Below are positions 3,388 to 36,256 of a stretch of 41,782 nt of DNA, one piece after another; the stretch's first letter is position 1; each line of letters starts with the position of its first letter. The translations under genes and the position numbers were made by a program. This DNA is from Myxococcaceae bacterium (GTDB taxonomy: Bacteria; Myxococcota; Myxococcia; Myxococcales; Myxococcaceae): the NCBI GenBank assembly GCA_016926755.1, contig JAFGNZ010000117.1, forward strand, positions 1 to 41,782, in the 5' to 3' direction. Under the pieces are notes generated by a model that was not told the DNA's origin, ran no database searches, and saw nothing but the letters and a program-made list of their open reading frames with translations.

Positions 3388-4839
3388 TCAACCCGGGGCG
3401 ACGCCCGCGACCAGGTAGAAGCGGAACTCGCCCGAGTTGACGCCGTAGGCCACGTCCACGCCCACCAGCGGCAGCACGATGCTGCGCAGGTACAGGCGCA
3501 GGCCCACGCCCAGGCCCTGCGCCAGCGTGGCGCCGTCCAGCCCGCCCTCCGCCTCCTCCAGGTAGCCGCGCACCACGCGCCCGTTCACGTCCCGGAGCAG
3601 CTTGTCCTCGGGCAGGGTCCGCCACATCATCAACCCCGTGTCCGAGAAGCCCACCCCTCGGAACGACAGCGACTTCACGGTGAAGAGCGGGAAGTGGTAC
3701 TCGGCCGTGAAGGACAGCCGGGTGTCGCCGCGGAACTGCCGGTACAGGAAGCCCCGCAGCGAGTTGCCTCCCACCACCAGCTCCTGGTGGAAGGGCAGGT
3801 CCAGGCCCGCCACCGCCTCGCCGCGCAGCACCAGGTTGTGCTCCTCGAAGAAGCGCAGGCCATGCCGGTACAGCAGCCCGAAGCGCTTGTAGCGGAAGTT
3901 GCTCCACACCCCCGGATCCGAGAACTCCAGCGAGCCCTCGATGTTCAGCCCCTCCATCACCGCGTGGAGGTTCTGCCGCGTGTCGACCCCCACGAACAGC
4001 CGCAGCGAGGTGTCGCGCTGCGCCGCGCCGGGCTCGAACGCCGGCTCCGTCACCGGGGCGTCCGTGCCCGGCGCCTGGGCGTCGATGAGCATCAGCCGGT
4101 ACTTGGCACCCACCCGCACCCGCTCGGCGATCATCACCGACAGCTCCCCCGCGGCGGAGGCCGAGTTGAGCCGCGTGCGGCGTGCCACCTCGGGCTCGTC
4201 CTGGCTGGCGCCCAGCCGGTACTCCTCCACCCGATCGCTGCGCACCTGGCCCTCGAAGCTCAGCCGCAGCGGCGGGAAGCCGAACAGGTTCGGATCCAGG
4301 TAGCCCACGAACAGGCCGCTCTCCGCCGTGCTCACCTGCAGCGCCGCCGCGAACTTCTTGCTGCGGCCCCACAGGTTGCTCTCCGCGTACAGCACCCCGC
4401 CGCCGATGTTCGAGTTGGACACCGAGAAGGTGGGCGCCACCACCCACGAGGCCTTGTCCTCCACCTGGAGCACCACGCGCACCCGGCCCTCTCCCGTGGC
4501 CTGCGTGCTGACACGCACCTCCTTGAAGAGGCCCGTGGCGAGGAGCCGCCGCTCCACCCGGAGGAGCTCCTCCTCGGTGATGGAGTCGCCTGCATCCAGA
4601 CGCGAGTACGCCCGCACCGTCTCCGGCAGCGTCTTCTCCATGCCGAGGGCTGTCACCTCGTCCACGATCATCCGGGCGGGCGCGGGCGGAGGGACTTCCA
4701 GGAGGGAGGGCGGGATCTCCTCGACGGTGAGAGGCGGCTGTGGGGCAGGGGGAGAAGGCTCCGCCGCCTGGGCGTCGACTCGCGGGGCCTGAAGGCCCAG
4801 CATCAGCGCCACGCACCCTCCCACCCATCGTCTCTTCAT
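3388..4839 (-). CDS. BamA/TamA (Omp85) family outer membrane protein
   Basis: The product is 483 residues from the ATG at 4839, which is followed by a signal peptide (MKRRWVGGCVALMLGL...VDAQA). Residues about 55-130 look like one POTRA-type domain (DAGDSITEEELLRVERRLLA, then TGLFKEVRV). The rest is a beta-barrel with a strong Omp85 signature near the C-terminus: LVVGGNSLRGFLYRQFRGDT, then AEYHFPLF. The last residues (FRFYLVAGVAPG) form a terminal strand. BamA has five POTRA domains and about 800 residues, so with one visible POTRA this is a short member, closer to TamA-like or FhaC-like insertion and secretion proteins. Likely jobs are outer-membrane protein insertion or translocation of a partner. 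It is transcribed away from the peptidase gene at 5046, and the 206 bp between them should hold both promoters. Confidence 0.8.
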   Translation of the reverse strand: MKRRWVGGCVALMLGLQAPRVDAQAAEPSPPAPQPPLTVEEIPPSLLEVPPPAPARMIVDEVTALGMEKTLPETVRAYSRLDAGDSITEEELLRVERRLLATGLFKEVRVSTQATGEGRVRVVLQVEDKASWVVAPTFSVSNSNIGGGVLYAESNLWGRSKKFAAALQVSTAESGLFVGYLDPNLFGFPPLRLSFEGQVRSDRVEEYRLGASQDEPEVARRTRLNSASAAGELSVMIAERVRVGAKYRLMLIDAQAPGTDAPVTEPAFEPGAAQRDTSLRLFVGVDTRQNLHAVMEGLNIEGSLEFSDPGVWSNFRYKRFGLLYRHGLRFFEEHNLVLRGEAVAGLDLPFHQELVVGGNSLRGFLYRQFRGDTRLSFTAEYHFPLFTVKSLSFRGVGFSDTGLMMWRTLPEDKLLRDVNGRVVRGYLEEAEGGLDGATLAQGLGVGLRLYLRSIVLPLVGVDVAYGVNSGEFRFYLVAGVAPG

Positions 4840-5045
4840 GGCTCGTTGCACGCGCACTGCTCTCCCCTGAGTCCCCGGTCCGCTTGGGGGCGGAGCGAGG
4901 CGTGAGGGTAGCACGGGTGCGCTGTGACTCACCGGTGCAAGGGCCTCATCCACCGGGAGCTCATGTCCTCCAACAGCATGAGGGAATGTCGCCCCAGGTT
5001 CTCAGGTTGCCGGGCCGCAGTCCTCCCTCTTCGGAGAAAGCACTT

Positions 5046-6503
5046 ATGAGCAAGACGACCCGCCTTGCCGGGGCCCTCGTGGCCGCGCTGCTGGCGCCGC
5101 AGCTCCAGGCCCACGCCAGTTCCAATTTCGAGCTCGAGCCCGTCGCGCCTACCGTCGCGGCTCCGGCCCCCCAGGAGAGCGCGTCCGACGAGGACGCCGA
5201 CATCCTCACCCGCATCCGTGCCCTCCCGGGGGTGGTGTCCGCGGTGGAGCTGAGGAGCCTCCCGGGCGCGCGCTTCTTCTCCATCGAGTTCGATCAGCCG
5301 GTGGATCACCAGCAGCCCCAGGGGCGGCGCTTCCTCCAGCGCGTGACGCTGCTGCACCGCGCCGAGGCTCGCCCCATGGTGCTCGCCAGCACCGGCTACG
5401 GCATCTCCATCCGCGCCTCGCAGCGTGAGCTGACGTACCTGCTCCAGGCCAACCAGCTCACCGTGGAGCACCGCTTCTTCGGGCCCTCCACGCCCCAGCC
5501 CACCACCTGGGAGCACCTCACCATCGCCCAGGCCGCCGGGGACCATCACCGCCTCGCCGAGGCCTTCAAGGCCCTCTATGGCGCGAAGTGGGTGTCCACC
5601 GGCGCCAGCAAGGGCGGCATGACGAGCGTGTACCACCGCTTCTTCTACCCGGGAGACGTGGACGCCACCGTGCCCTACGTGGCCCCGAGCAGCCAGGGCC
5701 CGTATGACGCGCGCTACGTGAAGTTCGTGGCCGAGGCGGGCAGCGATCCGGCGTGCAACGAGAAGCTGAGCACCTTCCAGAAGGCCGCCCTCCTGCGCCG
5801 CGCCGAGCTGCTCCCGCTCGTGAGCGCCGCCTACGAGCCCCTGGGCATCACCTTCAACCTCCTGGGCCTGGAGCGCTCGTTCGAGTTCGCGGTGGTGGAG
5901 CTGCCCTTCGCCTTCTGGCAGTACGGCGCCCAGCCGCTGTGCGCCTTCATCCCGGCCGCGGACGCGCCGGCCGCCGAGCTGTTCGACTTCCTCGAGTACG
6001 TCGTCGGGGTCGGCTACCTCGCCGGTGACGGCTTCATCACCTACTACGCGCCCTACTACTACCAGGCCGCCACCCAGCTCGGCGCGCCGCGCGTGGACGA
6101 GCGCCACCTGCACGGGATGCTGCGCTACCCGCGCCAGGACGTGGTCTTCAACTATCCGCCCTACGACGTGGAGAAGCCGTTCGATCCCTCCATCATGAAC
6201 CAGGTGGAGCGCTGGGTCCTCAACGAGGGCCAGCGCTTCCTCTTCATCTATGGAGGCAATGATCCCTGGTCCACCGGCGCCTTCGATGTGCGCGAGCGCA
6301 ACGACGCGTTCCGCCTCTGGGTGCCCGAGGGCAACCACGGCTCCAGCATCCTCGCGCTCCCCGAGGCGGAGCGCACCCTGGCGCTCGACAAGATCGAGGC
6401 GTGGATGGGGGTTCCTGTCCTCCGCCCAGGGGCGCTGCGCGCGATGGAGGGCGGCGAGCTGCCCTTCGATCCGCCGAGCCGCGAGGAGCTCTTCCTGCGG
6501 TAG
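5046..6503 (+). CDS. Secreted S37-family peptidase (tripeptidyl aminopeptidase type)
   Basis: The 485-residue protein begins with a signal peptide (MSKTTRLAGALVAALLAPQL...HAS) that fixes the ATG at 5046; CGGAGAAAG upstream is the ribosome-binding site. It matches the PS-10 / S37 serine peptidases first described in Streptomyces, alpha/beta-hydrolase enzymes that release tri- or tetrapeptides from protein N-termini. The nucleophile motif GASKGGM puts the serine at residue 188. The acid is likely the Asp in IYGGNDPWS, and the histidine the one in PEGNHGSS, giving a complete triad. The Tyr/Phe-rich insert around YYAPYYYQ is typical of the family. The enzyme would be exported and could serve the predatory, protein-degrading lifestyle of myxobacteria. 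It converges with the next gene: the two stops share TAGCGCTA. Confidence 0.85.
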   Translation: MSKTTRLAGALVAALLAPQLQAHASSNFELEPVAPTVAAPAPQESASDEDADILTRIRALPGVVSAVELRSLPGARFFSIEFDQPVDHQQPQGRRFLQRVTLLHRAEARPMVLASTGYGISIRASQRELTYLLQANQLTVEHRFFGPSTPQPTTWEHLTIAQAAGDHHRLAEAFKALYGAKWVSTGASKGGMTSVYHRFFYPGDVDATVPYVAPSSQGPYDARYVKFVAEAGSDPACNEKLSTFQKAALLRRAELLPLVSAAYEPLGITFNLLGLERSFEFAVVELPFAFWQYGAQPLCAFIPAADAPAAELFDFLEYVVGVGYLAGDGFITYYAPYYYQAATQLGAPRVDERHLHGMLRYPRQDVVFNYPPYDVEKPFDPSIMNQVERWVLNEGQRFLFIYGGNDPWSTGAFDVRERNDAFRLWVPEGNHGSSILALPEAERTLALDKIEAWMGVPVLRPGALRAMEGGELPFDPPSREELFLR

Positions 6504-15967: not shown

Positions 15968-17371
15968 TTAGCGCGGTGGCTGCCGGGTGACGAGTTGGTT
16001 CAGTTCTGTTCCCGGCGTGGCGATCTGCCTGGCCAGTTTCCGGAGTTGGCCGGTCAACGCCTCGCGGCACGCGACGACGCTGCGACAGGTCGCCGTTGCG
16101 GTGTCCAGTTCCTCGAAGACGATCTGGTGATACCGCTCGGGGTGTGGTCCGTAATGCCCCGGGAGGGGCATCTTGTTCGCCGGGTCATCCATCGACATCC
16201 CCGCCTTGGCGAAGATGCGGCGGAATCGTGGCGTCCACGGGCCGCCGCGCGCGGTGGACGTGTCGTTGCAGATGGTGGCGATGTGGTGCGTCTCGATGCA
16301 GGGGGCCTTGTTGCCACGGCCACTCGCTCCCATCGTCATCGCGGTGGCTGTCACCGTCACACTCACGCCCTCGGCCGTCAGCGCGATCTCCTCCACGGTC
16401 CCCAGGGCGCTCACCCGGATTCCTGCCTTGCCCTCGGCCTGCAGGGCCATCTGCGCCGAGCCGGGCAGCGTCGGCACCTTCGCCGCGAACAACTGCGCCG
16501 TCGAACCAATGGCCGCCACCAGCAGCAGGGCGAAAGCGCGCGCGGCCTCCCGCCCGAGAATCTTCCCGAAGCGCTCACCCGCGTCCCGGATCTGCTCGAA
16601 GGTGGTGGCCACCTTCACCTCCTCCATCAACCGGAACCAACCCGTCACCAGGTTGCGCAGCGTGTCGTAGCCCACGTACAGCACCAGCCCCAGGCTCAGC
16701 ACCGCCACCAGCGCCGGTGCCACCGGATTGAGCGCCATGATCAGCAGCATGGAGCCGAGCGTCCACAGGGCCGCGTTGAGGAGCGCGCGCACCTCCACCA
16801 TCTCCCCGAGGGCCTTCTCCATCTCGTCAATCACCGGGCTCTTGCTCAGCGCCAGCGCCCAAATGTAGCGGCCGTGCATGTCCAGGTAGCGCCCCGCCAC
16901 CAGCGCGCCCCCCAGGCAGTCGCCATAGGCGTTGTAGGCGCGCTGGCACCAGAGCCGGTAGCGCTCGGCCGTCTCCAGGTCGTCTTTGGTCAACGCGCCT
17001 TCCAGGGGCTGGCCCGGTCCCGCCGGCACCAGCTTCTTGTCCCTCGGAAGATAGAGGTAGTCGCCAGATTGCGAGTCCATGGGCAATAGCTTCTCCGGAA
17101 ACATCTTCTCCACCGTCTGGCGCGGCGTGCCACTCAGCCGCGCCTTGCGCGCCAGGGGCCGGATGGCTTGCTGGAACTCCTCTTTCTCCACCACCACGGG
17201 TTGCAGCTCCACCGTGCGTGGGATGTGGATGACGACTCGGCCCTGGCCGGTGTGCTCCACTCGGAAGGTGCGTGGGGTAGCGCTGCACCCCACCGCCAAC
17301 GCAAGGATGAGCGGGTTGGTCTTCCACAGCGCCGGCCACAGCACCCGCCCCATCATTCGCCACAGCCTCAT
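15968..17371 (-). CDS. AHH-nuclease lipoprotein toxin (locus B, SitA-like)
   Basis: The product is 467 residues. The ATG at 17371 follows AAGGGGTG. The signal ends in lipobox LAVGC with Cys29 as the lipidated residue. Two or three hydrophobic stretches lie near residues 205-235 and 280-300. The carrier part (ATTFEQIRDAGERFGKILGR, then EAARAFALL) parallels the locus A toxin. The final 110 residues are an AHH domain of the HNH/endonuclease VII superfamily: ETHHIATICN with His362-His363, PRFRRIFAKAGMSMDDPANK, and GHYGPHPERYHQIVFEEL with further metal or catalytic histidines. It should cleave DNA or RNA once inside a recipient. A lipoprotein carrier with a swappable nuclease tip and a coupled immunity gene fits SitA-type toxins delivered by outer membrane exchange. 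Delivery is inferred. Confidence 0.85.
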   Translation of the reverse strand: MRLWRMMGRVLWPALWKTNPLILALAVGCSATPRTFRVEHTGQGRVVIHIPRTVELQPVVVEKEEFQQAIRPLARKARLSGTPRQTVEKMFPEKLLPMDSQSGDYLYLPRDKKLVPAGPGQPLEGALTKDDLETAERYRLWCQRAYNAYGDCLGGALVAGRYLDMHGRYIWALALSKSPVIDEMEKALGEMVEVRALLNAALWTLGSMLLIMALNPVAPALVAVLSLGLVLYVGYDTLRNLVTGWFRLMEEVKVATTFEQIRDAGERFGKILGREAARAFALLLVAAIGSTAQLFAAKVPTLPGSAQMALQAEGKAGIRVSALGTVEEIALTAEGVSVTVTATAMTMGASGRGNKAPCIETHHIATICNDTSTARGGPWTPRFRRIFAKAGMSMDDPANKMPLPGHYGPHPERYHQIVFEELDTATATCRSVVACREALTGQLRKLARQIATPGTELNQLVTRQPPR

Positions 17372-18653: not shown

Positions 18654-19142
18654 ATGCCCAAGCCCATAGCCAGCTTGCTTGAAGAAGTCTCGCGCGATCA
18701 CTTCCCGTATCCGCCCGCTACGCCTGCGGAGATTGCGGAATTCGAGGAGCGCGTGGGCTGGAAACTGGATCCCGACCTGCGGGCCTTCTATCTGCACTGC
18801 AACGGCGCGGAGTTGATCAAGCGGCTGCCAAATTCGCCTTACCAGATCCTCCCCTTGTCCGAGATCGTCCGGGCGCGCGTAGCCATCTACGGTGAAGATG
18901 ACGGCAAGTGGGGCCCTTCCTCTGTGTATGCAGTCTGCGATGTTCAAGACGGCAACTACCTGGTGATCGACGTGAGCCAACAGGTGAACGGGCGCTATCC
19001 GCTGTTCGACGCATGGCATGAGGCATGGCCGGATCCAAACTACTGCGACAAGATCGAAGATTCGTTCTCGGACTTCCTGGAAGCCGCTTTGCGTGCGCGC
19101 CGCCCCGCGTACTGGCTCAAGAGGGGCGCTGGGCAACACTGA
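18654..19142 (+). CDS. SMI1/KNR4 (SUKH) family immunity protein (locus C)
   Basis: The product is 162 residues and soluble. It shows the SUKH pattern: an early ATPAEIAEFEERVGWKLDPD, then LRAFYLHCNGAELIK, YQILPLSEI, and later VYAVCDVQDGNYLVIDVSQ and DAWHEAWP. SUKH proteins are a large immunity superfamily of bacterial polymorphic toxin systems, often directed against nuclease tips. The ATG is 2 bp past the stop of the toxin-tip frame, the spacing expected for a coupled toxin-immunity pair. The gene looks intact although its toxin does not, so it may persist as an orphan giving resistance to toxins of neighbouring strains. Confidence 0.85.
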   Translation: MPKPIASLLEEVSRDHFPYPPATPAEIAEFEERVGWKLDPDLRAFYLHCNGAELIKRLPNSPYQILPLSEIVRARVAIYGEDDGKWGPSSVYAVCDVQDGNYLVIDVSQQVNGRYPLFDAWHEAWPDPNYCDKIEDSFSDFLEAALRARRPAYWLKRGAGQH

Positions 19143-19367: not shown

Positions 19368-20105
19368 ATGACGCAAGAGATGAAGGGGCTGCTGCTGGAG
19401 GACCGCTGGGCGCCTGTCACTTCAGAGATGGGCTTTCTGGAGCTGGGGGCGGAGCAGGCGGCGCAAGCCTTCGCCACGTGGGAGAGAGAGGTGATGATGC
19501 CCCGTGGCATCACCGTGGAGGTGCTCCCCGTCTCGGGCACCCTGGAGCAAGCCCTCTCCCGCCTGCTACCCCTGACCAGTGGGGAGAGGCGGCGGCGCCT
19601 GTTCATCCCGACGCGCAGCACCTGGACAGCCTACGTTGCCGACCAGTGGACTGGGACGGATGCCGCCAGCCCCATGAGCGCCATGGCCCGGAGGCTAGGC
19701 ATCCGGTGCCTGCGGGTGGTCGCCGTGTCCCACACGCTGCGCGGGAACCAAGGCCGCTATGGTGGGGTGATGCTGGATGTGTTCGGCCCGGAGCAGCCGG
19801 AGAAGATCAGCAACACTGTGCGCGTCGTGGAGGTTGCCAATGACGGGGGACGCTGGGTCTTCGTGCAGTCGGGTGAGCCCTTCCCCTTCGAGCAGGTAGA
19901 GCAGTACCAGGCGCGCCGGGTGAGGGACCGCTTCACCTTTGACATGCTCAAGGACTACCTGCGCCACCTGGGGCTGGCACCTTTCGAGGAGGACTTCTAC
20001 ATGCCTCCGGGCTCCCGCGCGTGGCTCATCCAAAAGACAGGCCCCTTCACCACCGTCGGGCGGGAGTACACGCTGGAGGAGGCCCGCGCCGCCCATGTGT
20101 TGTGA
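19368..20105 (+). CDS. Myxobacterial protein of unknown function, possible orphan immunity
   Basis: The product is 245 residues, soluble, with no signal peptide. I recognise no named domain, though similar proteins with RSTWTAYV..QWTGTDA, HTLRGNQGRYG and NDGGRWVFVQSGEPFPFEQ blocks seem to recur in myxobacteria. The Trp/Gly-rich middle and the C-terminal RDRFTFDMLKDYLRHLGL suggest an alpha/beta fold. It follows the SMI1/KNR4 gene in the same direction, separated by 225 bp that include the GC-rich repeat. Position inside the toxin island makes an immunity or accessory role likely, but nothing in the sequence proves it. A second cryptic immunity gene without its toxin is one reading. Confidence 0.6.
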   Translation: MTQEMKGLLLEDRWAPVTSEMGFLELGAEQAAQAFATWEREVMMPRGITVEVLPVSGTLEQALSRLLPLTSGERRRRLFIPTRSTWTAYVADQWTGTDAASPMSAMARRLGIRCLRVVAVSHTLRGNQGRYGGVMLDVFGPEQPEKISNTVRVVEVANDGGRWVFVQSGEPFPFEQVEQYQARRVRDRFTFDMLKDYLRHLGLAPFEEDFYMPPGSRAWLIQKTGPFTTVGREYTLEEARAAHVL

Positions 20106-20467
20106 CGCACCCAGCGGGCCGGGAGCGGCAAAGGGCGCCATTCGCGGACTCGGAGGGGCGCGGCCCTGGCGCCATTCTCGGGCTGGTGGTGCGTGGGACA
20201 GCGCCAGCCCGGCCCGGTGCCGCGTGCCAGGACAGCAGCCAGGGGCGCCGCGCCCGCGTCGGGCGGATGGCTCATGGCAAAGGAGTGGACGGTGGGTGGC
20301 TACTTCCAACTGAGTTGGAAGTGGCGATCCACCCCTGGCGCCCCGTGGAGGCGCGGCGTTGGAGGCTGGGCACTGCGGACAGAAAATCCTCGCGCTGGCG
20401 GGCGCTTTGGCTACAACGCACCCCCTCCGGGCTGACCCGGACACATGACTGAAAAGGAGCGCCTGTG
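20106..20467. other. Intergenic stretch closing the toxin island
   Basis: These 362 bp contain no supported gene. They hold the third palindromic repeat (20296-20342) and, at the end, an AAAGGAGC ribosome-binding site for the gene at 20468. GC-rich short duplications (GGCGCCATTCGCGG and GGCGCCATTCTCGG near 20140-20180) look like decayed DNA. No promoter could be assigned with confidence. Confidence 0.4.
20296..20342 (+). repeat. 47-bp palindromic repeat, copy 3 (right boundary of locus C)
   Basis: The hairpin core (20299-20325) is identical to the two copies near 17.5 kb. With its TCCACCCCTGGCGCC flank it matches copy 1 at 46 of 47 positions, the difference being A for C just after the core. 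The orientation is the same. Copies 1 and 3 thus bracket locus C as direct repeats about 2.8 kb apart. Confidence 0.85.
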
Positions 20468-21031
20468 ATGAAGCGGAACACGCCGTGGCAGGTCCTGGCC
20501 CTCGCGGCCGCACTCGCCATCTCGCTCGAGGCGCGCGCGCAGGAGGAGGCGCCGTCGGTGACGCGCACGGCTGGGGGCTTCGGCGCTGTGGGGCAGCTCG
20601 CCATCTCCTCGGACTTCTTCGGGGAGCTCGGCTTCCGCAGCGGCCCGGGAGACGATGAGTTCCTCATCACCCTGCGGCCCGCGGCGGACTACTTCCTCAA
20701 GGAGAACCTCTCGCTGGGCGGCCACGTCACCCTGGCCACCTCCCTCCAGGATGGCAATGATCCGCTGGCGGTGGGGCTGGGCGTGCGCGGCGGCTACAAC
20801 ATCCCGCTGACCGACACGGTGTCCGTGTGGCCGAAGCTCGGCCTGGCCGTGGGGCATGTGGATGCGATCCTCACGGATCGGACCTACCTGGAGATCTCCC
20901 TCTCCGCGCCCTTCCTGATCCACTTCGCGCCGCACTTCTTCGTCGGCGGGGGCCCCAGCCTCGTCACCCAGCTGGGCGACAGCACCATCGCCACGCTCAG
21001 CGTGAGCACGGTCGTCGGCGGCTACTTCTGA
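20468..21031 (+). CDS. Small outer-membrane beta-barrel protein
   Basis: The product is about 187 residues. A signal peptide (MKRNTPWQVLALAAALAISL...ARAQ) supports the ATG at 20468 after AAAGGAGC; the GTG three bases upstream is an alternative. The mature part alternates polar and hydrophobic residues in about eight strands and ends VVGGYF, an aromatic-terminated last strand typical of porin-like barrels. Glycine-rich turns (FVGGGPSLV, LGVRGGYNI) support this. It resembles outer-membrane-beta-barrel-domain proteins that are numerous in myxobacteria and lack assigned roles. Confidence 0.7.
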   Translation: MKRNTPWQVLALAAALAISLEARAQEEAPSVTRTAGGFGAVGQLAISSDFFGELGFRSGPGDDEFLITLRPAADYFLKENLSLGGHVTLATSLQDGNDPLAVGLGVRGGYNIPLTDTVSVWPKLGLAVGHVDAILTDRTYLEISLSAPFLIHFAPHFFVGGGPSLVTQLGDSTIATLSVSTVVGGYF

Positions 21032-21155
21032 TCTAATGATGCGGCTGCGGCGTGGTGGAACTTTTCCACCCAGTCCGCACGAGCGAGCAGGTGGGCGTCC
21101 GGCGGTGGGCGTTCTGGATTAGGCTTCGGTCAGAACCCCCCGCCTCGTGCCTCGA

Positions 21156-21857
21156 ATGCGCTCCCTGCTCGCTCAGCCCGCTCCCCGGAAGGCCACTCTC
21201 GCCGTGCTGCTGTTGCTCTTCGCGCTGCCCGCCGGCGCCAGGACGCGCATCGGCGTGGGCCTGGACCTCTTCATCGAGGACTCGCGGATGACGGGGGCGC
21301 AGACGATCAACACGTCCACGCGCGACGAGTCGTTCGACTACGGCAGCGACGGGTTCCTGTCCGCCACGCTGGGCATGAGCGTGCCCGCGCCCATCTTCGA
21401 GGAGCGGGCGCGCATTGGCGGCGCCGTGCGCCTGTTCGGCAACTACGGCGCGGGTGGGGATCGCACCTTCGGCTTCGGCCTGCTCAACGAGGCGTTCATC
21501 ACGGGCGAGTACGGCCTGCCCGTGGCGGACAAGCTGGAGGTCGTCTTCGGGGCTCGCGGGGGGCTGGCGCTGCTCATCCCCGGCCGCGACTTCATCCAGG
21601 AGATCGAGCGGCTCCAGGACGAGGGCGTCAGCGTGTGGAGCCTGCCGCGGCTGGGCTGGCTGGGCGGGCTCTCCGTGGGCGTCCGGCGGGCGATGAGCGA
21701 TCGGGTTCTGCTGCGCGCCGACCTGCTCGCCCAGTATGAGAAGCTCTTCCTCTTCTCCACGAGCCAGGAGTTCGATGATGGGCTCACGTTCAACAAGGAC
21801 TGGAGCACCTCCGGTCTGCGCTTCGGCCTCACGTTCGGCGTCGAATTCGCCCTCTAA
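21156..21857 (+). CDS. Outer-membrane beta-barrel protein
   Basis: The product is about 233 residues with a signal peptide (ATLAVLLLLFALPAGARTR). The ATG at 21156 or a GTG at 21147 could be the start; neither has a clear ribosome-binding site. The mature protein shows amphipathic strands with Gly/aromatic turns (IGGAVRLFGNYGAGGDRTFG, LRFGLTFGVEFAL) and ends in a hydrophobic terminal strand. The family is not recognised. The next gene begins 30 bp downstream on the same strand, so it may form an operon with the DUF1549/1553-like lipoprotein. Confidence 0.65.
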   Translation: MRSLLAQPAPRKATLAVLLLLFALPAGARTRIGVGLDLFIEDSRMTGAQTINTSTRDESFDYGSDGFLSATLGMSVPAPIFEERARIGGAVRLFGNYGAGGDRTFGFGLLNEAFITGEYGLPVADKLEVVFGARGGLALLIPGRDFIQEIERLQDEGVSVWSLPRLGWLGGLSVGVRRAMSDRVLLRADLLAQYEKLFLFSTSQEFDDGLTFNKDWSTSGLRFGLTFGVEFAL

Positions 21858-21887
21858 GGGCTTCACCCCCCACCCCGGGAGCCGCGG

Positions 21888-23684
21888 ATGAACCGTCTCC
21901 TCACGCGGGTCTTCACGACCCTGATGACATTGGCGGTCGCCTGCTCAGGCGACAAGGGCTTCGATCCGGAGCAGCTCGCGGTGGGCCCGGGCGGCCTGGT
22001 GGGCAATGGCGACCCGCTCACCCCGGGCGACTTCGCGGGCGGGGATGACGTGCTGCCCGCGCCGCGCGAGGTGACGCCGCCGGACGACACGCGCCCACCC
22101 GACTGTGATGGGGCGTGCGTGTCCTACTGCAACGCCACGAGCCTGCAGAACCCGGTCAACCGGGGCCTGTGTCGCAGCCTGTGGGGGGTGGGCCTGTCAC
22201 ACCAGCCCATCAACCACCCCGAGGCGTGCCGCCGGCTCTTCGTGGACGTGCTGGGGCGCCTGCCCACCGCGGAGGAGGCGGACGCCACCTGCACCGGCGG
22301 GTGGGGCGCCACGGTGAAGCGGCTGATGGACAGCCAGGAGTTCATCTTCATCAACCAGCGCCGCGCCGCCGACAAGTTCCTCTACAGCAACGAGGTGGTG
22401 AACATCCAGGCCATCTACGACATGGATCGCCTGGTGGAGAAGCTCTACCGCGGCAAGGTGCCGTATGACTTGTTCGCCGCGGTGGTGAGCGCGCACCCGG
22501 TGCTCACCCGCCGCCACGCGGATCCCGGCGACAAGGTGGAATCGCTCTTCCGCCTCTTCCTGGGCCGGCCGCCCTTCGAGCACGAGAAGGCGGACATGGC
22601 CCGCATCTACCGGCCGTGGCACTCGGGCTACTACGATCACCCGCAGCTGGGCCGCATGCCGGACGCCTACCTCAAGTTCCCCTGCCTGACGGAGGACAAG
22701 AAGGCGGTGGATCCGATCCGCAAGGGCGAGTGCACCAGCGTGCTGTGGGGCTACCACGAGCTGGTCTTCGTCCCGGATCTGCGCGCCGCCACGGATCGGC
22801 AGCTCAACCAGCTGACGATGTGGAACGGCCTGCTGTCGCCGGAGGAGTGGGCGCAGGTGCAGCTGCCGGGCCGCGTGCTGGCCACGGAGCTGGCCTTCTG
22901 GGAGCGGGCGGTGGATGACGTGCTGGAGCTGTACCTGGGCTACGAGCTGTCCCCGAAGGTGCCGGAGGTGCGCGCCGAGCTGGTGCGCTGGCTGCTGGAG
23001 CACCAGGGCGACATCCGCTCCGTGCACTACGCCGTGCTCACCTCCGCCGCCTACCTGCAGTCCGCCTATGGCGACACGGCCACCTCGTACCGGTGGACGC
23101 ACGGGCCCATGAAGCAGATGGACGCGGAGGTGTGGATCGACTCCATGGCGCGCAACACCGGCTACACCACCACGGGCTGTGATCACCGCATCAGCCAGCC
23201 GGAGCTCCTGCTGCGCTCCAGCAGCATCGCCGCGTACCGGGTGCTCCAGTCCTCCCGCTGGATCCTGGATGAGGAGGGCCGGATCGAGCAGAGCTACGCC
23301 AACCTCGCGCGGACCCTGGGCGGCTGCCCGGAGAACATCATCGGCGGGCGCTTCCGCGTGGTGAGCATCCTCACCACCGGCACGCAGCTGGCCTTCGTGG
23401 GGGACCTGTGCAACCCGACGATGGACGCGGACGTGAGGGGCGCCGCCATCGAGCGGCTGCTGCCGGCGGGCGTGGAGCCCGGCCGCGCGGTGGACCAGGA
23501 GCTGGCGGGCCAGATCGCCACGCACCAGTACCGCGAGCTGCTGGGCCGGCCACCCAGCGCGGAGGAGCTGACCGAGGCGCGGGAGGCGGGCGCGCAGTGT
23601 GCCCTGGACCGCTGTGGGGCCGAGCAGTTCGCCCGGCCGCTGTGCTTCGCGCTGCTGTCCAGCGCGGAGCGTCTCTTCTACTGA
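21888..23684 (+). CDS. DUF1549/DUF1553-like lipoprotein
   Basis: The product is 598 residues. The N-terminus MNRLLTRVFTTLMTLAVACS has a lipobox (AVAC). A Pro/Asp/Gly-rich linker to about residue 75 is followed by a Cys pair region (CDGACVSYCNA). The body has helical motifs reminiscent of the planctomycete cytochrome-associated DUF1549/1553 proteins: RRLFVDVLGRLPTAEEAD, FLYSNEVVNIQAI, LFRLFLGRPPFEHEKAD and the C-terminal YRELLGRPPSAEEL. Their biochemical role is unknown, but they commonly sit beside DUF1501 and cytochrome genes, as here. It begins a three-gene operon; the next ATG follows the stop by 19 bp. Confidence 0.7.
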   Translation: MNRLLTRVFTTLMTLAVACSGDKGFDPEQLAVGPGGLVGNGDPLTPGDFAGGDDVLPAPREVTPPDDTRPPDCDGACVSYCNATSLQNPVNRGLCRSLWGVGLSHQPINHPEACRRLFVDVLGRLPTAEEADATCTGGWGATVKRLMDSQEFIFINQRRAADKFLYSNEVVNIQAIYDMDRLVEKLYRGKVPYDLFAAVVSAHPVLTRRHADPGDKVESLFRLFLGRPPFEHEKADMARIYRPWHSGYYDHPQLGRMPDAYLKFPCLTEDKKAVDPIRKGECTSVLWGYHELVFVPDLRAATDRQLNQLTMWNGLLSPEEWAQVQLPGRVLATELAFWERAVDDVLELYLGYELSPKVPEVRAELVRWLLEHQGDIRSVHYAVLTSAAYLQSAYGDTATSYRWTHGPMKQMDAEVWIDSMARNTGYTTTGCDHRISQPELLLRSSSIAAYRVLQSSRWILDEEGRIEQSYANLARTLGGCPENIIGGRFRVVSILTTGTQLAFVGDLCNPTMDADVRGAAIERLLPAGVEPGRAVDQELAGQIATHQYRELLGRPPSAEELTEAREAGAQCALDRCGAEQFARPLCFALLSSAERLFY

Positions 23685-23703
23685 GTCCCCGGAGCCATTG
23701 CCC

Positions 23704-25113
23704 ATGTCCGACGACACGAAGAAGCCCGTCACGATCGGCCGCCGCGGGTTGCTCAAGGGCCTGGGGGCGGGTGCCACCGCCCTGGCCTTGCCGACCCTGT
23801 GGCTGCCCAACAAGGCCTACGCCCAGACCTCCGGGCGCGGCAGCGTGGAGCACCTCATCTACATCCGCCTGGGCGGCGGCTTCCGCTTCACCACCGCGTT
23901 CAACGCCGACGTGGATGGGGACTTCAACCCCTTCGGCAGCGCGGGGCAGCGCGCCCCCGGCACCGAGTGGGGCGTGGGCTCCCTGCTGGAGCAGGCCACC
24001 TGGCTCGAGGGCGACGAGGGCCTGCCCCGGGTGGAGCTGGGCATGCAGCGGGTGACGGACTTCACCAACGAGATCTGCGTGCTGCCGTGCGTGGATCACG
24101 AGCCCTTCTCCGCGCGCGCGGACGGCAACCACGGCACGGGGCTGGAGCGCTTCCTCACCGGCTTCGTGGGCGGCAACACCAGCTTCCTCTCGTACCTGAA
24201 CTACGGGCTGCGCGAGAAGGTCGCCGAGGCGGCCCGGCAGGGCGAGACGCTGCTGCCGGCCTTCAGCCTGGGGGAGTCGGGCATGGCGCTGGGGGCGGGC
24301 GTCTACGCCGGCTACCGGCCGCCCGTGCTGGATGGCAGCGGCTTCGAGCGGTTCGGGTTCGATCCGGACTCGACGCTGCCGGCGTGGGCGGTGAACATCG
24401 CCGGCAACCTGGACAGCCGGCTGCGCGCGAAGCTGCACCCGGGGCTGCGCACCGGCGTGGAGGCCTACCAGCAGACGCGCGAGGCCACGCGCGCCTACGG
24501 CCGCATCTTCCGCGATCCGATCCTCCGGGTGAACGCCACCTCCGAGGAGGCGGTGGACGGCATCAGCAACCGGGAGCTGGTGACGATGCTGGGGGACGAC
24601 GGCACCGGGCGCGAGGTGGTGCTGGCCCTGCGCCTGTTCCACTTCGGCTGCCCCGCCGTCTTCCTCAACCAGGGCTTCTATGACTTCCACTCGGACGAGG
24701 CGGATGGCCTCCCGGGCGAGATGGATCAGGCCAACCGGCTGCTGAGCGGCCTGCGCACCGCCCTCAAGCGCATGCAGCACCCCAAGGGCGGCACCTACTG
24801 GGACAAGACGCTGGTGGTGCTGGGCAGCGAGTTTGGCCGCACCGCTGGCGGCAACAAGTTCAACTCGGCCAACGGCAGCGACCACTCCAGCGATCTGGCC
24901 ACGCGCTGGATGTCCATGCCGATGATGGGCGGCATCATCGATCAGGCGAGCAAGGGCGGGCGTCGGCTCGGCGAGACGCGCGCCTCGGACCTGAAGGCCA
25001 TGGGCAAGGTGTACTCCTACCGCTCCGTGCTCAAGACGTTGATGGACCTGCTCGGCGCGGACCACAGCACCGTCTTCCCCGCGGACAACCCTCTGGAGGA
25101 TCTCTTCCTATGA
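23704..25113 (+). CDS. DUF1501 family protein with Tat signal
   Basis: The product is 469 residues. It starts MSDDTKKPVTIGRRGLLKGL, a twin-arginine signal (RRGLLK) cleaved near AYAQ. The body matches DUF1501 (PF07394), an alkaline-phosphatase-like fold: LIYIRLGGGF near the start, NREL and RLFHFGCPAVFLN in the middle, WDKTLVVLGSEFGRTAGGN as the family hallmark, and a histidine-containing NGSDHSSD metal-site region. Substrate is unknown. Tat export suggests that it folds with a cofactor or metal before secretion. Its stop overlaps the next start by 4 bp (ATGA), so the products are probably made in fixed proportion. Confidence 0.85.
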   Translation: MSDDTKKPVTIGRRGLLKGLGAGATALALPTLWLPNKAYAQTSGRGSVEHLIYIRLGGGFRFTTAFNADVDGDFNPFGSAGQRAPGTEWGVGSLLEQATWLEGDEGLPRVELGMQRVTDFTNEICVLPCVDHEPFSARADGNHGTGLERFLTGFVGGNTSFLSYLNYGLREKVAEAARQGETLLPAFSLGESGMALGAGVYAGYRPPVLDGSGFERFGFDPDSTLPAWAVNIAGNLDSRLRAKLHPGLRTGVEAYQQTREATRAYGRIFRDPILRVNATSEEAVDGISNRELVTMLGDDGTGREVVLALRLFHFGCPAVFLNQGFYDFHSDEADGLPGEMDQANRLLSGLRTALKRMQHPKGGTYWDKTLVVLGSEFGRTAGGNKFNSANGSDHSSDLATRWMSMPMMGGIIDQASKGGRRLGETRASDLKAMGKVYSYRSVLKTLMDLLGADHSTVFPADNPLEDLFL

Positions 25114-26471
25114 TTCGCTCCACGCTTGCTCCCGTGCTCGCCGGCCTCCTGCTGGCCTGTGGCCCCTCCGAGCCCTACGGCGGGCCCGGTGAGATCCCCT
25201 TTGATCCGCAGCGCCCCACCCCGGGCACGCCTGGCGAGGTGACGCCGTATACGGGCACCCACCCGATCGTGCTGGAGGCGCAGACGCGCCTGCCCACCGG
25301 GCTGGAGCTGCAGCGCAAGCTCGTGCTGCGCACCTGCGGCCCCACCAACGGCGTGTGCCACAACCAGAAGGAGTTCCCGGACCTGCACACCACGGGCACC
25401 TTCGCGGCCGCCATCAACCTGCCCTGCAACCTGCAGCCCGGCAGCTACATCTCCGTGTATGACCGGTGCGAGCGGCTGGGAGATCGCTTCACGTTCAGCG
25501 ACCACGACAACTCCAAAGAGCTGGAGCTCGGCTGGTTCGAGGTGGTGGTGGGCGCGTACGTGGAGTACGAGGACGACCAGACGCCGCCCTCGGACGCGGC
25601 GGGGCTGCACCTGCACTTCAAGGACGTGGTGCTGCTGGAGCAGGGGCGGGCGCACTGGGGTACGGGCACCTTCATCCGCAACTTCGTCAACGATCAGGGC
25701 AACGTGGAGGCGCTCGCGTTCGCCAGCTACAACACGCGCTGGTGGGTGCTGGATGACGGCAAGCACCTGTTCGGCGAGGTGCGCGACTACCAGCGCGAGT
25801 CCGTGGACGCGCTGCTGGCGGTGGGCATCATCCAGGGAGACCAGAACCGCAACGGCATCTTCGGCGCGCGCGAGGGCAAGACGGTGCCGATGATCAACCC
25901 GGGCAAGCCGGAGGAGAGCTACCTGGTGGCGCGGCTGCGCGGGCACATGCAGGGCGAGGCGGTCCCCGGCACCCGCATGCCCCTGGCCAACCAGCCCCCG
26001 TCCGTGACGGACATGCTCGCGCTCATGTGCTTCATCGAGGGCCTGGATCCGGCCGCCCAGGAGTGGAACCTCTCGGCGTCCATCGACTACAACGCGTGCT
26101 CCTACATCGCCGACCCGGAGGCGCTGAACCTGGTGGGCGCGGGGGTGAAGTGGGGCGAGCGCGTGTGGCCCATCCTCCAGTCCAGCTGCGGCGGCTGCCA
26201 CGGCGGCGCCAACCCGCAGGCCGGGCTGGACCTGCTCTCCGCGGACACGTGGACGCGCCTGCAAGGCAACTCTTCGCAGAACCTGGACCTCAAGCTCATT
26301 GATCCGGGCCGCCCGGAGAAGAGCTACCTGTGGCTCAAGCTCGCCGGGGACGGCAGCATCTTCGGCAGCCGCATGCCGCTGGATCCGCTCGGCAGCGGCA
26401 GCCGCTCGCTGCCGCAGGATCAGCTCGACAGCATCCAGACCTGGATCCTCGCGGGCGCCTTCAACGACTGA
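25110..26471 (+). CDS. Lipoprotein with cytochrome-c-like haem motif
   Basis: The product is 453 residues, with a lipoprotein signal (VLAGLLLACG). Near the C-terminus is one normal haem-binding CxxCH (SSCGGCHGG, about residue 362), followed by a DPGRPEKSYLWLKL and GSRMP stretch with Met as likely distal ligand, as in planctomycete-type cytochromes c. The first half has a looser motif, RTCGPTNGVCHN (Cys-x6-Cys-His), and its own PEESYLVARLRG and GTRMPL copy. The protein therefore looks like a duplicated cytochrome unit whose first haem site has changed spacing. It would face the periplasm as part of an electron-transfer or oxidation set with the two preceding genes. It converges on the spondin gene with a 28-bp gap. 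Confidence 0.75.
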   Translation: MIRSTLAPVLAGLLLACGPSEPYGGPGEIPFDPQRPTPGTPGEVTPYTGTHPIVLEAQTRLPTGLELQRKLVLRTCGPTNGVCHNQKEFPDLHTTGTFAAAINLPCNLQPGSYISVYDRCERLGDRFTFSDHDNSKELELGWFEVVVGAYVEYEDDQTPPSDAAGLHLHFKDVVLLEQGRAHWGTGTFIRNFVNDQGNVEALAFASYNTRWWVLDDGKHLFGEVRDYQRESVDALLAVGIIQGDQNRNGIFGAREGKTVPMINPGKPEESYLVARLRGHMQGEAVPGTRMPLANQPPSVTDMLALMCFIEGLDPAAQEWNLSASIDYNACSYIADPEALNLVGAGVKWGERVWPILQSSCGGCHGGANPQAGLDLLSADTWTRLQGNSSQNLDLKLIDPGRPEKSYLWLKLAGDGSIFGSRMPLDPLGSGSRSLPQDQLDSIQTWILAGAFND

Positions 26472-26499: not shown

Positions 26500-27876
26500 T
26501 CAGCGGCTGATGGTCAGCTTCAGGTGGGTCGTCACCGGGGTGGCGTACTCGGAGGTGGGGACCTTGCGGACCTTGGTGTCGTTGTCGACCAGGCCGGTGT
26601 TCGCCGCCCCCTGCTGCGGGCCGGTGTTGGGGCCGATGCCCAGCTCCTCGGACTGCTCGGTGCCCGCATCGTAGAGCTGGAGCCGCGAGCTGAAGTCGCC
26701 GGTGAGCGGCTGGCCCGCCTCGTCGAAGAGGAAGATGCCCTCCGGCTCGGTGCCGAAGAACCAGTCATTGGACATGCCGAACATCGTCACGAACGAGAGC
26801 CGCGCACCTGGGTGGGCGCGCACCTCGAAGGTGTAGGCCTGGCCGGGGTGCGCCGGGCCAGGGGCGCTGGCGCCCTCGGGGGTGTTGAAGATGCCGTGCG
26901 CGGTCCTGGAGAAGGGCATCCGGATCCGCATCGCTTCGTACAGCGGGGTGACGTTGCCGTCCTCGGCGATCCGCTCCAGGCCCTGGCCGCTGTCCGGCGC
27001 GTTGAGCGTGAACAGCGCGCGCCCGGAGTGGGTGAGCAGGTAGATGCCGGGTGACACCGGGGTGCCCACACCGGTGGTGCTGGCGAGCGCGGAGGAGAGC
27101 GCGGTGACGTTGCCCGACTCGGCGAGCGCCTCGAGCCCCTGCCCGCGATCCCTCATGCCCGCGGAGAAGAGCGGCTCGCCGCCGGTGGACAGCGTCCACA
27201 CGCCCGGGGAGATGCGCACCGGCTTGGGGCCCTGGGTCGTCATCAGCGTGGAGTCGTCCTTGGCGACGTTCTGGATGAGGACGGTGAACGTGCGGGTGGG
27301 CACGTTGTAGGCGACGAGGACGCGGATCATCTCTTCCACCGGCGGCACGTGGAACCAGCCGCCGCCGGGCAGATCCACCGGGGAGACGACCTTGCGCACG
27401 CTCGTGTTCGGATCCGCGGCGCCCGGCCCGTCCGTGGAGGAGGCCTGGTTGGGGCCGGTGTGCGGGCCGACGGCCGGCTCCTCGTCGGCCTCGGTGCCCA
27501 CGTCCCAGAGGGAGATGCTCGAGGTGATCTCACCGGAGATCGGGCTGCCGCCCTCGTAGAGGTCGATGCCACCCGGCGGGGTGGAGAAGATCCAGTCGTT
27601 GGACTGGCCGAGCATGGAGGCGAACGAGAGCTTCTGGCCCTTGCCGGCGGTGAAGGAGAACTCGTAGTAGTCGCCCGGCGCGAGGGGGCCCGGCGCGGAG
27701 CCGCCGACGCGGGTGTGGTAGACGCCCGACTTGAGCTGGGCATAGGGGGCGACGTTCTCCAGTCGCACCTTGAAGGTGGTGGGCTCGATGGGCTTCGGCT
27801 CCTCGCCGCAGCCGGAAGCGAGGAGGGCGGCGGCGAGGAGGGCGGCGGAGACACGTCCAGCGTGAGAGGCGAGCAT
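26500..27876 (-). CDS. Double spondin-domain lipoprotein
   Basis: The product is 458 residues; the ATG at 27876 follows AGGAG and a lipobox lies in LLASGC. Two spondin_N-like domains are visible. The first (about residues 35-210) has FKVRLENVAP, GQSNDWIFSTPPGGIDLY, LWDVGTEADEEPAVG and GPNQ. The second (about residues 215-458) has FTVLIQNVA, GMSNDWFFGTEPEGIFLFDE, LYDAGTEQSEELGIG and GPQQG, with a G.W.L.....LF.AG.......GLE.LAE.GN repeat between. In animals this domain binds divalent ions and matrix; bacterial roles are not settled. It is probably a surface lipoprotein. It lies downstream of the NHL lipoprotein gene in the same direction, 91 bp away. Confidence 0.8.
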   Translation of the reverse strand: MLASHAGRVSAALLAAALLASGCGEEPKPIEPTTFKVRLENVAPYAQLKSGVYHTRVGGSAPGPLAPGDYYEFSFTAGKGQKLSFASMLGQSNDWIFSTPPGGIDLYEGGSPISGEITSSISLWDVGTEADEEPAVGPHTGPNQASSTDGPGAADPNTSVRKVVSPVDLPGGGWFHVPPVEEMIRVLVAYNVPTRTFTVLIQNVAKDDSTLMTTQGPKPVRISPGVWTLSTGGEPLFSAGMRDRGQGLEALAESGNVTALSSALASTTGVGTPVSPGIYLLTHSGRALFTLNAPDSGQGLERIAEDGNVTPLYEAMRIRMPFSRTAHGIFNTPEGASAPGPAHPGQAYTFEVRAHPGARLSFVTMFGMSNDWFFGTEPEGIFLFDEAGQPLTGDFSSRLQLYDAGTEQSEELGIGPNTGPQQGAANTGLVDNDTKVRKVPTSEYATPVTTHLKLTISR

Positions 27877-27967: not shown

Positions 27968-29659
27968 TTACCGACTCTCGAAGACGAGGAGGCGGTTGTT
28001 GCCGTAGTCCGTCACCACCACCTGCGGTGCGGCCAGCAGGATGCCGCTGGGCTGGTTGAGGCTCCGGGCGCTTGGCCTCCCCGTGGAGGGATCCACCTGG
28101 CTGCTGGAGTTGAAGTCCTGCTGCCCGAGGACAACATCCGCGGCGGCGCCATGGGTGGTGGGAAACTGGTTCCAGATCGTCACCCGAGAGTTCCGAAAAT
28201 CAGCAACGAAGATCTGTTGGCCGGTGGAGTTGACGTTATAGGGGTTGCTCATTCCCGCCGCGGTGGTGGCCGCAGCGCGGGTGGCGAAGCTCGGCTGGCC
28301 GAGGACCACGTCCGCGGGTTGACCATTCGTGGTGGGGAATTGATTCCAGAGGAGCACGCGGTTGTTGCTGGTATCAGCCACGAGGAGGCGGGTCCCATCC
28401 GTCCAGACGTCCCCGGGGAAGAAGAGCGTCGAGGCAGTAGCCGCGCCGTCATTGGTTCCGTCACCATCCGCGTCGTTGCCAGCACACGTGGTGAAGGACA
28501 CCTGTCCGAGGACCAGATCCGCGGCAGCGCCATTCGAGGTAGGCAGTGACTTCCAGATGAGGACGCGATGGTTGTAGGTGTCCGCGACGACGAGTTTCTC
28601 GTCACTGAGGGACACACCCTCCGGGATTTGAAGCGAGCGCGCGGTGCACTCAGCAGTTGAGGTCTCGAAGTCCGGCTGGCCGACGACGAGGTGGGGCTCG
28701 GCCGCGTTGGTGGAAGGGAGCGAGTTGTAGAGCAGGACCCGGTTGTTGGATTTGTCCGCGACTGCCAGGCGAGTCCCATCGCTGGAGTTGCTCTCGGGGC
28801 TGGACAGGCCGCTCCGTCCAGCCCTGGCCGTCGTGGTCGTGAAGTCGGGCTGGCCCAGGACGAAGGCGGCGCTCGCGCCATTCTGGGAGGGCACACCGTT
28901 GAACCCGAGGACCCTGTTGGAGCCCAGATCCGACACGTAGAGCATGCCACCCGCGAACACAGGGTTGCCCCAGGGGCTGTCCAGGGTGTTGGGGCCGGGA
29001 GTCTCATCCTGGTTGGGGAGCGCGCTGGTGAAGTCGCTCTGGCCGATGACGACGGTGGCGGATTGGAAGGATGACAGGTCGAACCAGGGGGTGCACCGGA
29101 CGGTGATGCCAGTAACGTTGCCGCTTACCGAGCCGCTCCCACCTGTGACGGCGCAGCGGTGGCCTCGGGGCTGGGTCGCCACCGTCACGGCGTAGGCGCC
29201 ACCCTGGGGCAGCCGGGTCTGGAAGGAGAAGGGGCCGCTCGCCGTGACGGGGAGCGTCTCCCCACCTTCCAGGCGGAGTAGGAGGGTTCCATTGAGCCCC
29301 GCGACTGTGCCTCCCAGGGAGTAGGTCCGCTGCGCGCAGGTGACCCGGACCGAGTCCACGTCCGCGCCGTTCACCTTGCCGGTGGCTCCTTGAAGGGTGC
29401 ATTCCTGCTCCGTAGGCGGAGCGCTGAGCGTGACCTCATAGGTGCGCTGATCGGCAACCGGAGTCTCGAAGGAGAAGGGGCCGTCCTGTCCCTGGGTGAG
29501 GCTCTCGGCCCCGTTGAGATGGAGAGTCAGGTTCCCGGCGAGGCCGGTGATCGTGCCTCCCACGCGAAACTCGGGCCGGGCCGGTGGCTTCGACGTGCCG
29601 TCGCCACACGCGGCCATGAGCGCCGCGGCTCCCATGAGCCTGAGCCATTTGATGTTCAT
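27968..29659 (-). CDS. NHL-type beta-propeller lipoprotein
   Basis: From the ATG at 29659 the product is 563 residues, with lipobox ALMAAC. Two short beta domains come first (about residues 30-180, each opening (V/L)GGT(I/V).GL.G.L.L.L). A propeller of about six blades follows, built from repeats of ADVVLGQ.(D/S)F, then GL..P.........LLVADT.NNRVL(L/I)(W/Y).(Q/S)(F/L)P. Such NHL-like propellers are usually binding surfaces rather than enzymes. The protein should sit in the outer membrane or on the surface. It starts 45 bp after the DUF4215 gene stop and is the fourth gene of the kinase-led operon. The second copy of that operon lacks a counterpart within this window. An upstream in-frame ATG at 29695 would bury the signal. 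Confidence 0.8.
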   Translation of the reverse strand: MNIKWLRLMGAAALMAACGDGTSKPPARPEFRVGGTITGLAGNLTLHLNGAESLTQGQDGPFSFETPVADQRTYEVTLSAPPTEQECTLQGATGKVNGADVDSVRVTCAQRTYSLGGTVAGLNGTLLLRLEGGETLPVTASGPFSFQTRLPQGGAYAVTVATQPRGHRCAVTGGSGSVSGNVTGITVRCTPWFDLSSFQSATVVIGQSDFTSALPNQDETPGPNTLDSPWGNPVFAGGMLYVSDLGSNRVLGFNGVPSQNGASAAFVLGQPDFTTTTARAGRSGLSSPESNSSDGTRLAVADKSNNRVLLYNSLPSTNAAEPHLVVGQPDFETSTAECTARSLQIPEGVSLSDEKLVVADTYNHRVLIWKSLPTSNGAAADLVLGQVSFTTCAGNDADGDGTNDGAATASTLFFPGDVWTDGTRLLVADTSNNRVLLWNQFPTTNGQPADVVLGQPSFATRAAATTAAGMSNPYNVNSTGQQIFVADFRNSRVTIWNQFPTTHGAAADVVLGQQDFNSSSQVDPSTGRPSARSLNQPSGILLAAPQVVVTDYGNNRLLVFESR

Positions 29660-29704
29660 ACCGAGGTCTCCCTGGCGTGGAAGGGTTGGAAGCAACGGGC
29701 GCTG

Positions 29705-32985: not shown

Positions 32986-35940
<2,955 letters not shown>

Positions 35941-36256
35941 TGCCCGCTGACTTCCCTTCTGAGGCAGTGGCGCACCGAGAGGGGTCTCTCGATCCCCGCT
36001 TCTCCTGGCCGTGGGAGAGAGGGGCCCCGCCCTACCTGTTGGCGGGTGCCAGTTTCGTTCAGTTCCAAGCGCCGCGACAAGAATCGGGGCGTGCGACGCG
36101 GGCTGCGGGGGCTCGACTGCCTGCCTTCTCGATGTAAGCAGGGTTTGCAGGGTAGGGCACACCTCCGCCCAGCCCTCTGTACGTGTCAGCACAGTTGAGC
36201 CCGCTGAGCGAGCGAGCGGGCTCGCGGCAGGCTGATCCGCGACTCAGCTTCTGGGG
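35941..36256. other. Divergent intergenic region between two kinase genes
   Basis: These 316 bp separate the starts of the kinase-STAND gene (minus) and the soluble kinase gene (plus), so they should contain both promoters. I see no open frame with a good start, no repeat matching others in the window and no convincing sigma-54 or sigma-70 boxes. Confidence 0.4.

Follow-up and report, generated by a model that had tools for sequence, protein, structure and literature searches.

This article concerns a unit of four genes in a 41,782-bp stretch of DNA from a soil bacterium of the Myxococcaceae (assembly GCA_016926755.1, contig JAFGNZ010000117.1), which we call the window. Gene A encodes a divergent DUF1549/DUF1553 lipoprotein, gene B a DUF1501 protein with a twin-arginine translocation (Tat) signal and gene C a two-domain cytochrome lipoprotein; a barrel-like gene, OMP2, stands upstream. 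Of 195 Myxococcota genomes surveyed, the 22 that have B are also the 22 that have C, and the exported set probably forms an envelope complex that handles electrons. The more specific proposition, that positions 21147-26471 are one operon for a cell-envelope redox complex in which A and B form the core and C carries electrons, is to our minds an even call.

PSCyt/PSD proteins, often with DUF1501, are numerous in planctomycetes; for Rhodopirellula baltica, an excerpt of one paper gives 41 occurrences of PSD1 and as many of PSCyt2 (PMC2754498). According to an excerpt of a 2017 paper, nothing was known about the functions of PSCyt genes (PMC5615132), and we found no function for such a set in open-licence PMC papers. 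The kind is already known, and uncharacterised. What is new is this clade's version of it, which is sharply defined, present in single copy and small enough to delete. Its haem is split from its partner, its genes co-occur in a fixed way and an arginine is swapped into the DUF1501 protein, features through which the roles of haem, metal site and partner can each be tested directly.

The gene unit and its distribution

The open reading frames (ORFs) of A, B and C run from 21888 to 26471, just as a preliminary description of this DNA had proposed, with 19 bp between A and B and a 4-bp overlap, ATGA, between B and C (Table 1). With start codons picked by script, the overlap was seen again in 15 of 17 loci, and both it and the gene order are kept even in the distant locus L153. 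We take the genes to be co-transcribed. A scan for promoters and terminators was uninformative, returning no promoter-like site and one terminator-like site against 2.3 expected.

Table 1. Features of the gene unit and their positions in the window
Feature	Position	Strand	Remarks
OMP2, upstream barrel-like gene	21147..21857	+	predicted to be exported; barrel-like in sequence alone; the conserved unit starts with it
Gene A	21888..23684	+	divergent haem-less DUF1549/DUF1553 lipoprotein (predicted)
Lipobox Cys19 of A	21942..21944	+	invariant, 15/15
Gene B	23704..25113	+	DUF1501 protein, predicted Tat export, ATG at 23704; modelled alkaline-phosphatase-superfamily fold
Tat twin arginine, R13 R14 of B	23740..23745	+	invariant, 16/16; 15/15 rows of mixed DUF1501 alignment
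Arg61 of B, at the GGxD Asp position	23884..23886	+	Arg in 16/16 orthologues
His143 of B, nearly invariant in DUF1501, 10 residues ahead of the TG Gly	24130..24132	+	41/42
Asp327-x-His329 motif of B	24682..24690	+	42/42
Glu376-Phe-Gly-Arg379 motif of B	24829..24840	+	Glu 41/42 (Asp in one), Arg 42/42
Asp393-His394 motif of B	24880..24885	+	42/42
Gene C	25110..26471	+	two-domain PSCyt1 cytochrome lipoprotein (predicted)
Lipobox Cys17 of C	25158..25160	+	invariant, 17/17
Residues 76-84 of C, CX6CH (CGPTNGVCH)	25335..25361	+	candidate non-canonical haem c site; C76, C83, H84 invariant in 17/17 and distant L153
Residues 122-241 of C, beta domain inserted in the N-terminal cytochrome domain	25473..25832	+	AlphaFold2 model, six strands
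Residues 244-248 of C, DxNxN	25839..25853	+	calcium-loop-like; D, N, N invariant in 12/12 alignment rows including L153
Met290 of C	25977..25979	+	proposed distal haem ligand, N-terminal domain; in RMPLAN, 17/17 and 12/12
Residues 360-364 of C, CGGCH	26187..26201	+	C-terminal-domain haem c site; CXXCH in 15/17, CGCH in L034 and L035
Met422 of C	26373..26375	+	proposed distal haem ligand, C-terminal domain; invariant, 17/17

Our survey covered 195 Myxococcota genomes, with cut-offs of E ≤ 1e-40 for B, 1e-20 for C, 1e-10 for A and 1e-8 for OMP2. The co-occurrence that the preliminary description had put forward for survey turned out to be strict, and together with the recurring ATGA overlap it goes beyond chance. 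The 22 genomes holding both B and C are 21 of the host's family, f1, and one other, G185; A is in 24, namely these 22 together with G009 and G071, and OMP2 in 22, the 21 of the family and G009. OMP2 adjoins A in 21 of its 22 genomes and lies 6.6 kb away in the remaining one (G018). The G009 contig, of 5,990 bases, ends inside A (4615-5988). Each genome gives one match, so the set is single copy, and a search with the N-terminal domain of C alone returned the same 22 full matches and three short, weak ones (G007, G016, G038). No plasmid copies of C were found. Among the DUF1501 matches listed, every genome of three genera carries the set (seven of g1, six of g8, four of g12); most other genera of the family lack it, including all listed genomes of g43 and g23. 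Mean column identity in the orthologue alignments is 77% for A and for B and 68% for C. Two in-frame stops were seen, TAG in gene A of G009 (C853, 4615-5988) and TGA in OMP2 of G029 (C233, 10571-11260); the genomes are drafts, and we put these down to error or decay.

The boundaries come from a tblastn comparison of eight window genes with 18 loci, some of them short and one (L033) a repeat of L041. OMP2, A, B and C travel together. The flanking genes at 19368-20105, 26500-27876 and 27968-29695 had no match at E ≤ 1e-4 in these loci and were set aside. The preliminary description had suggested that two barrel genes might belong to the unit, and only the second, OMP2, does. The first, at 20465-21031, stands upstream in just 7 of the 14 distinct homologous loci, window aside, that reach well past A (L041-L052, L054 and L035), and in five of those seven the distance to the following gene is 721-1347 bp. 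It falls just under the cut-off for OMP_b-brl (27.2 against 28.7), and OMP2 had no Pfam match in any of the 14 members scanned; barrel structure is putative, and not established, for both.

That such genes sit in a myxobacterium is ordinary. The preliminary description had pointed to a planctomycete-style set in a myxobacterium, which is not unusual in itself: at E ≤ 0.001, 123 of the 195 genomes have a DUF1501 match and 91 a PSCyt2 match, most of the latter covering just the opening portion of the profile. The distinctive thing is the clade.

Domains and motifs of the three proteins

The family assignments proposed earlier hold, most easily for B, a DUF1501 protein (PF07394) at 75.1 bits against a cut-off of 27, and for C, a PSCyt1 protein (PF07635) at 35.2 against 22. 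At E ≤ 0.01 all 16 B members and all 17 C members match. A is the difficult case. It barely passes for PSD1 (DUF1553, PF07587; 29.2 against 28.5 bits) and stays below the gathering cut-off for PSCyt2 (DUF1549, PF07583; 19.3 against 29.8). At E ≤ 0.01, however, PSCyt2 matches 15 of 15 A orthologues and PSD1 14 of 15, the A of L035 being below cut-off at 16.1 bits, and the A of G029 exceeds the PSCyt2 cut-off at 34.2 bits, the only orthologue among the matches listed with bits to do so. We therefore regard the weak assignment as real. The distant A of G071 is also above that cut-off (36.2 bits). The export routes proposed for the three proteins, lipoproteins for A and C and Tat for B, are predictions with which the invariant Cys19, Cys17 and Arg13-Arg14 agree; a strict lipobox pattern did not pick up A in L041 and L042 or C in L051, L052 and L053, though the lipid cysteine itself is invariant in both alignments.

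What A lacks is a haem motif. The window protein covers profile positions 20-120 of 209 in PSCyt2, its first half only. None of 15 A proteins has a CX1-6CH motif, nor, by reading, do two distant ones. All four planctomycete-type proteins compared from within the phylum carry CAQCH or CARCH in the latter half of PSCyt2. The families of the window set are those of the planctomycete-type arrangement, PSCyt1-PSCyt2-PSD1 with an adjacent DUF1501 (PF07635, PF07583, PF07587, PF07394), and to that extent the planctomycete-style label stands. The standard architecture does not: the haem domains are in a separate lipoprotein, C, A is without the haem half of DUF1549, and B has Arg at GGxD. Within the phylum, full-length PSCyt2-DUF1501 pairs lie side by side in L139-L141, and L142 is a single-protein fusion of PSCyt1, PSCyt2 and PSD1 whose haem motifs are CFGCH and CARCH; no DUF1501 gene was found in the 6.8 kb examined there. 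Because L142 fuses these domains, we take A and C to belong to a single assembly. The set may be a re-partitioned PSCyt1-PSCyt2-PSD1 plus DUF1501, in which A would have given up its own haem and the haem function would reside in C.

C is two copies of one cytochrome domain. A profile comparison of residues 40-320 with 336-453, unstitched, scored 55.8, whereas the best of 100 column shuffles reached 19.1; the match spans 35 columns, through PGxPExSYLxxRLxG...RMPL. Once the insert had been removed by hand, it grew to 72 columns, haem site included, and scored 61.1 (shuffled maximum 17.9). The C of L153, at 302 residues, is the first copy alone; it keeps CX6CH and RMPLAN and has no Pfam match. 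The CX6CH domain is therefore the core, and the ordinary CXXCH domain an addition or something that can be lost. The conserved core would thus be a cytochrome domain with CX6CH, a Met ligand and an inserted beta domain, followed in most members by the ordinary domain. Covalent haem at CX6CH is a candidate assignment, as is calcium at the DxNxN loop, which its sequence would suit. If CX6CH does carry haem, its spacing is a new one that falls between the short forms and CX14CH or CX15CH.

Spacing is loose in the relatives of this domain. In 15 weakly matching loci from the host's order (L018-L032), 14 of which cover the haem motif, we count CX2CH in five, CX3CH in two and CX4CH in seven; since these occur side by side, plain CXXCH counts would miss many cytochrome domains. 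Two metagenome-assembled genomes, L034 (1410-2783) and L035 (9302-10675), have CGCH as the second haem motif of C, with one residue between the cysteines.

By fold, the C-terminal domain is closest to two proteins that stand above the remaining structure matches: the C-terminal haem domain of hydrazine synthase alpha (5c2v; Z 8.3, root-mean-square deviation (rmsd) 3.0 over 98 residues, 26% identity) and FoxE, a putative iron oxidase (5mab; Z 8.0, rmsd 2.8 over 95), Z values near 8 being of a size that common arrangements can also give. The sequence matches have E values of 2.5e-4 and 1.4e-4, respectively. Beyond fold and sequence, our results show nothing that C has in common with hydrazine synthase alpha, although no search was made for hydrazine synthesis genes. 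Unlike FoxE, which is a dihaem protein, C has the inserted beta domain and CX6CH, and there is no evidence of iron oxidation. For the insert, PilZ-like and Hcp-like folds tie at Z 5-6, and we read no function from them.

B departs from most of its family at one position. We compared it with 42 DUF1501 ORFs from other loci, which are 39 distinct genes; 30 of the comparison loci are the best-scoring Pfam DUF1501 matches and not a random sample. At GGxD the ORFs have Asp in 33, Ser in seven and Arg in two (L153 and L154), or 33, four and two by distinct gene. His143, Asp327, His329, Glu376, Arg379, Asp393 and His394 are invariant in all 16 B proteins. Arg at GGxD is a mark of the clade, one that bars B from the Asp-type subgroup but not from PF07394. 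In a midpoint-rooted tree of 55 DUF1501 rows, which left out L053 (a partial B, absent from the B alignment too) and L139-L141 (copies of L079-L081), the 16 B proteins fall with L153 and L154, all Myxococcota, on one branch (100/99). This branch groups with six rows of the second-trio type (described below) and the planctomycete type, 24 rows in all (100/99), and the remaining 31 rows, Pseudomonadota included, fall apart from them. Both L153 and L154 have long branches. The program flags several of these joins as points where long branches come together, which makes precise placement uncertain.

The model of B points to an alkaline-phosphatase-superfamily fold, at a predicted local distance difference test (pLDDT) score of 58.9. 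It matches 310 of 734 solved chains at Z ≥ 8, with ENPP7 on top (Z 12.9, rmsd 4.3 over 237 residues), and the 50 matches listed are all classed in that superfamily. A sequence search for solved structures of A or B gave only designed helical proteins, Tat-signal matches and chance matches. Going by the motifs of the superfamily, the GGxD Asp, His143 and Glu376 would make up one metal site and Asp327, His329 and His394 the other. If B residues map in this way, B would be a metalloprotein whose site is altered by the swap of Asp for Arg, perhaps with loss of a metal.

What the set may do

We picture A and C as lipid-anchored, to judge from their signal sequences, and B as folding in the cytoplasm before Tat export, with OMP2 probably the outer-membrane partner of the complex. 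A would hold B, whose metal site would act on an envelope substrate, either small or polymeric, and C would accept electrons from B or supply it with them. A bolder version holds that Arg-type DUF1501 proteins are redox enzymes of alkaline-phosphatase fold: Arg61 would remove one metal site, leaving a single 2-His-1-carboxylate metal (Asp327, His329, His394), and the CX6CH haem of the adjacent cytochrome, fenced by the inserted beta domain, would be its dedicated electron acceptor or donor. We think this very unlikely; if true, it would mean a new catalytic use of the alkaline-phosphatase superfamily and a new haem c spacing.

Several points weigh against the redox complex. Its weakest step is redox chemistry at B, a leap, because we know of no redox enzyme in the alkaline-phosphatase superfamily; B could instead be a hydrolase, or a scaffold that has no catalytic activity. 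Its model is of low confidence, and Foldseek alone found no match for it at E ≤ 0.001, its best, at E 0.043, lying in the same superfamily. For the C model, Foldseek alone again found nothing at E ≤ 0.001, none of the 50 matches listed is a cytochrome, the CX6CH loop (77-89) is modelled with low confidence, and the fold matches of C have the ambiguous size already mentioned. Nor are the partners fixed. G071 has an A-B pair only, followed by a gene for another protein that lacks a haem motif; C can therefore be dispensed with in some cases, and L035 and L153 have A, B and C without OMP2. Lastly, the residue at +2 after the lipid cysteine of C is Gly in 13 and Ser in one of the 17 orthologues but Asp in three (L047, L048, L049), so its membrane address may vary.

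One alternative would have B as an ordinary extracytoplasmic hydrolase of phosphoesters or sulfoesters in envelope or prey polymers, A as its carrier, and C as only a redox sensor or an unrelated electron sink. B shares its fold with phosphatases, sulfatases and phosphodiesterases; Asp327, His329, Arg379, Asp393 and His394 are in every one of the comparison ORFs; and in Verrucomicrobia, an excerpt reports, sulfatase genes are often near PSCyt genes (PMC5615132). The unit, however, holds no further enzyme gene, and the strict co-occurrence of B with C would go unexplained. Also, His143 stands, 10 residues before the TG Gly, where we take the Ser, Thr or Cys nucleophile of the superfamily to be. 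On balance a plain hydrolase seems somewhat unlikely. A and B might, on the other hand, be structural leftovers of decay, in which case the swap to Arg and the loss of haem would mark a pseudoenzyme scaffold that only positions C. Arg61 where 33 of 42 DUF1501 ORFs have Asp, and an A without a haem motif, would suit this, but A and B are better conserved than C, the rest of the B site is unchanged, and G071 keeps both without C. We consider decay improbable.

Doubt may equally fall on the haem of C: its N-terminal domain could be cytochrome-like but haem-less through loss, with CX6CH forming a disulfide or a metal site. A literature search for CX6CH with heme, in that spelling only, found no paper, the model of the loop is poor, and the Pfam PSCyt1 profile misses the one-domain C of L153. 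Set against this, Cys76, Cys83, His84 and Met290 are all invariant, spacing varies freely in related domains, and excerpts of two papers report that CX14CH binds haem in OmcZ (PMC11208441) and that CX15CH is served by a dedicated synthase, CcsA1 (PMC12285233). A haem-less domain is, in our judgement, unlikely. Recent transfer from a planctomycete, which the domain names might suggest, is extremely unlikely. The branch that unites the 16 B proteins with L153 and L154 is wholly myxococcotal, and the uniform presence of the set in g1, g8 and g12 is as expected under vertical descent; the tree gives recent transfer no support and, being drawn without planctomycete genomes, leaves room for an older one.

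Related sets and neighbouring genes

The same genome has a second trio (G000:C282, L040 7679-13484), a PSCyt2/PSD-like gene, a DUF1501 gene and a gene for a cytochrome lipoprotein-like product, in the same order as in the window. It differs in motifs: the first gene has CNYCH, the DUF1501 protein GGWD, and the cytochrome one CXXCH (CAKCH) and no CX6CH domain. Its first and third genes are under or at the Pfam cut-offs, and related DUF1501 genes occur in G002 and G112. Further afield, Proteobacteria have DUF1800-DUF1501 pairs in which a Tat-exported DUF1501, as in B, lies beside a second gene of unknown function, and the excerpt that reports them describes no cytochrome partner (PMC5122149). 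Four Pseudomonadota DUF1501 genes in our own comparison (L036-L039, partners not checked) fall across a 100/99 branch from B and have Asp at GGxD.

A paralogue of OMP2 elsewhere in the genome (L156, 607-1767; L155, 7858-8979) has a long Ala/Lys-rich N-terminal stretch; its neighbours, compared by eye in L155, L156 and L158, showed none in common. In the window itself, a gene on the reverse strand at 26500-27876, for a lipoprotein-like product with repeated spondin domains, converges on the 3' end of the unit, and another at 32986-36192, also on the reverse strand, encodes a STAND NTPase fused to a protein kinase. Upstream, an AHH-type nuclease-domain gene on the reverse strand (15968-17371) lies near a SUKH/SMI1-KNR4 gene on the forward strand (18654-19142), neighbours that presumably resemble bacterial toxin-immunity loci.

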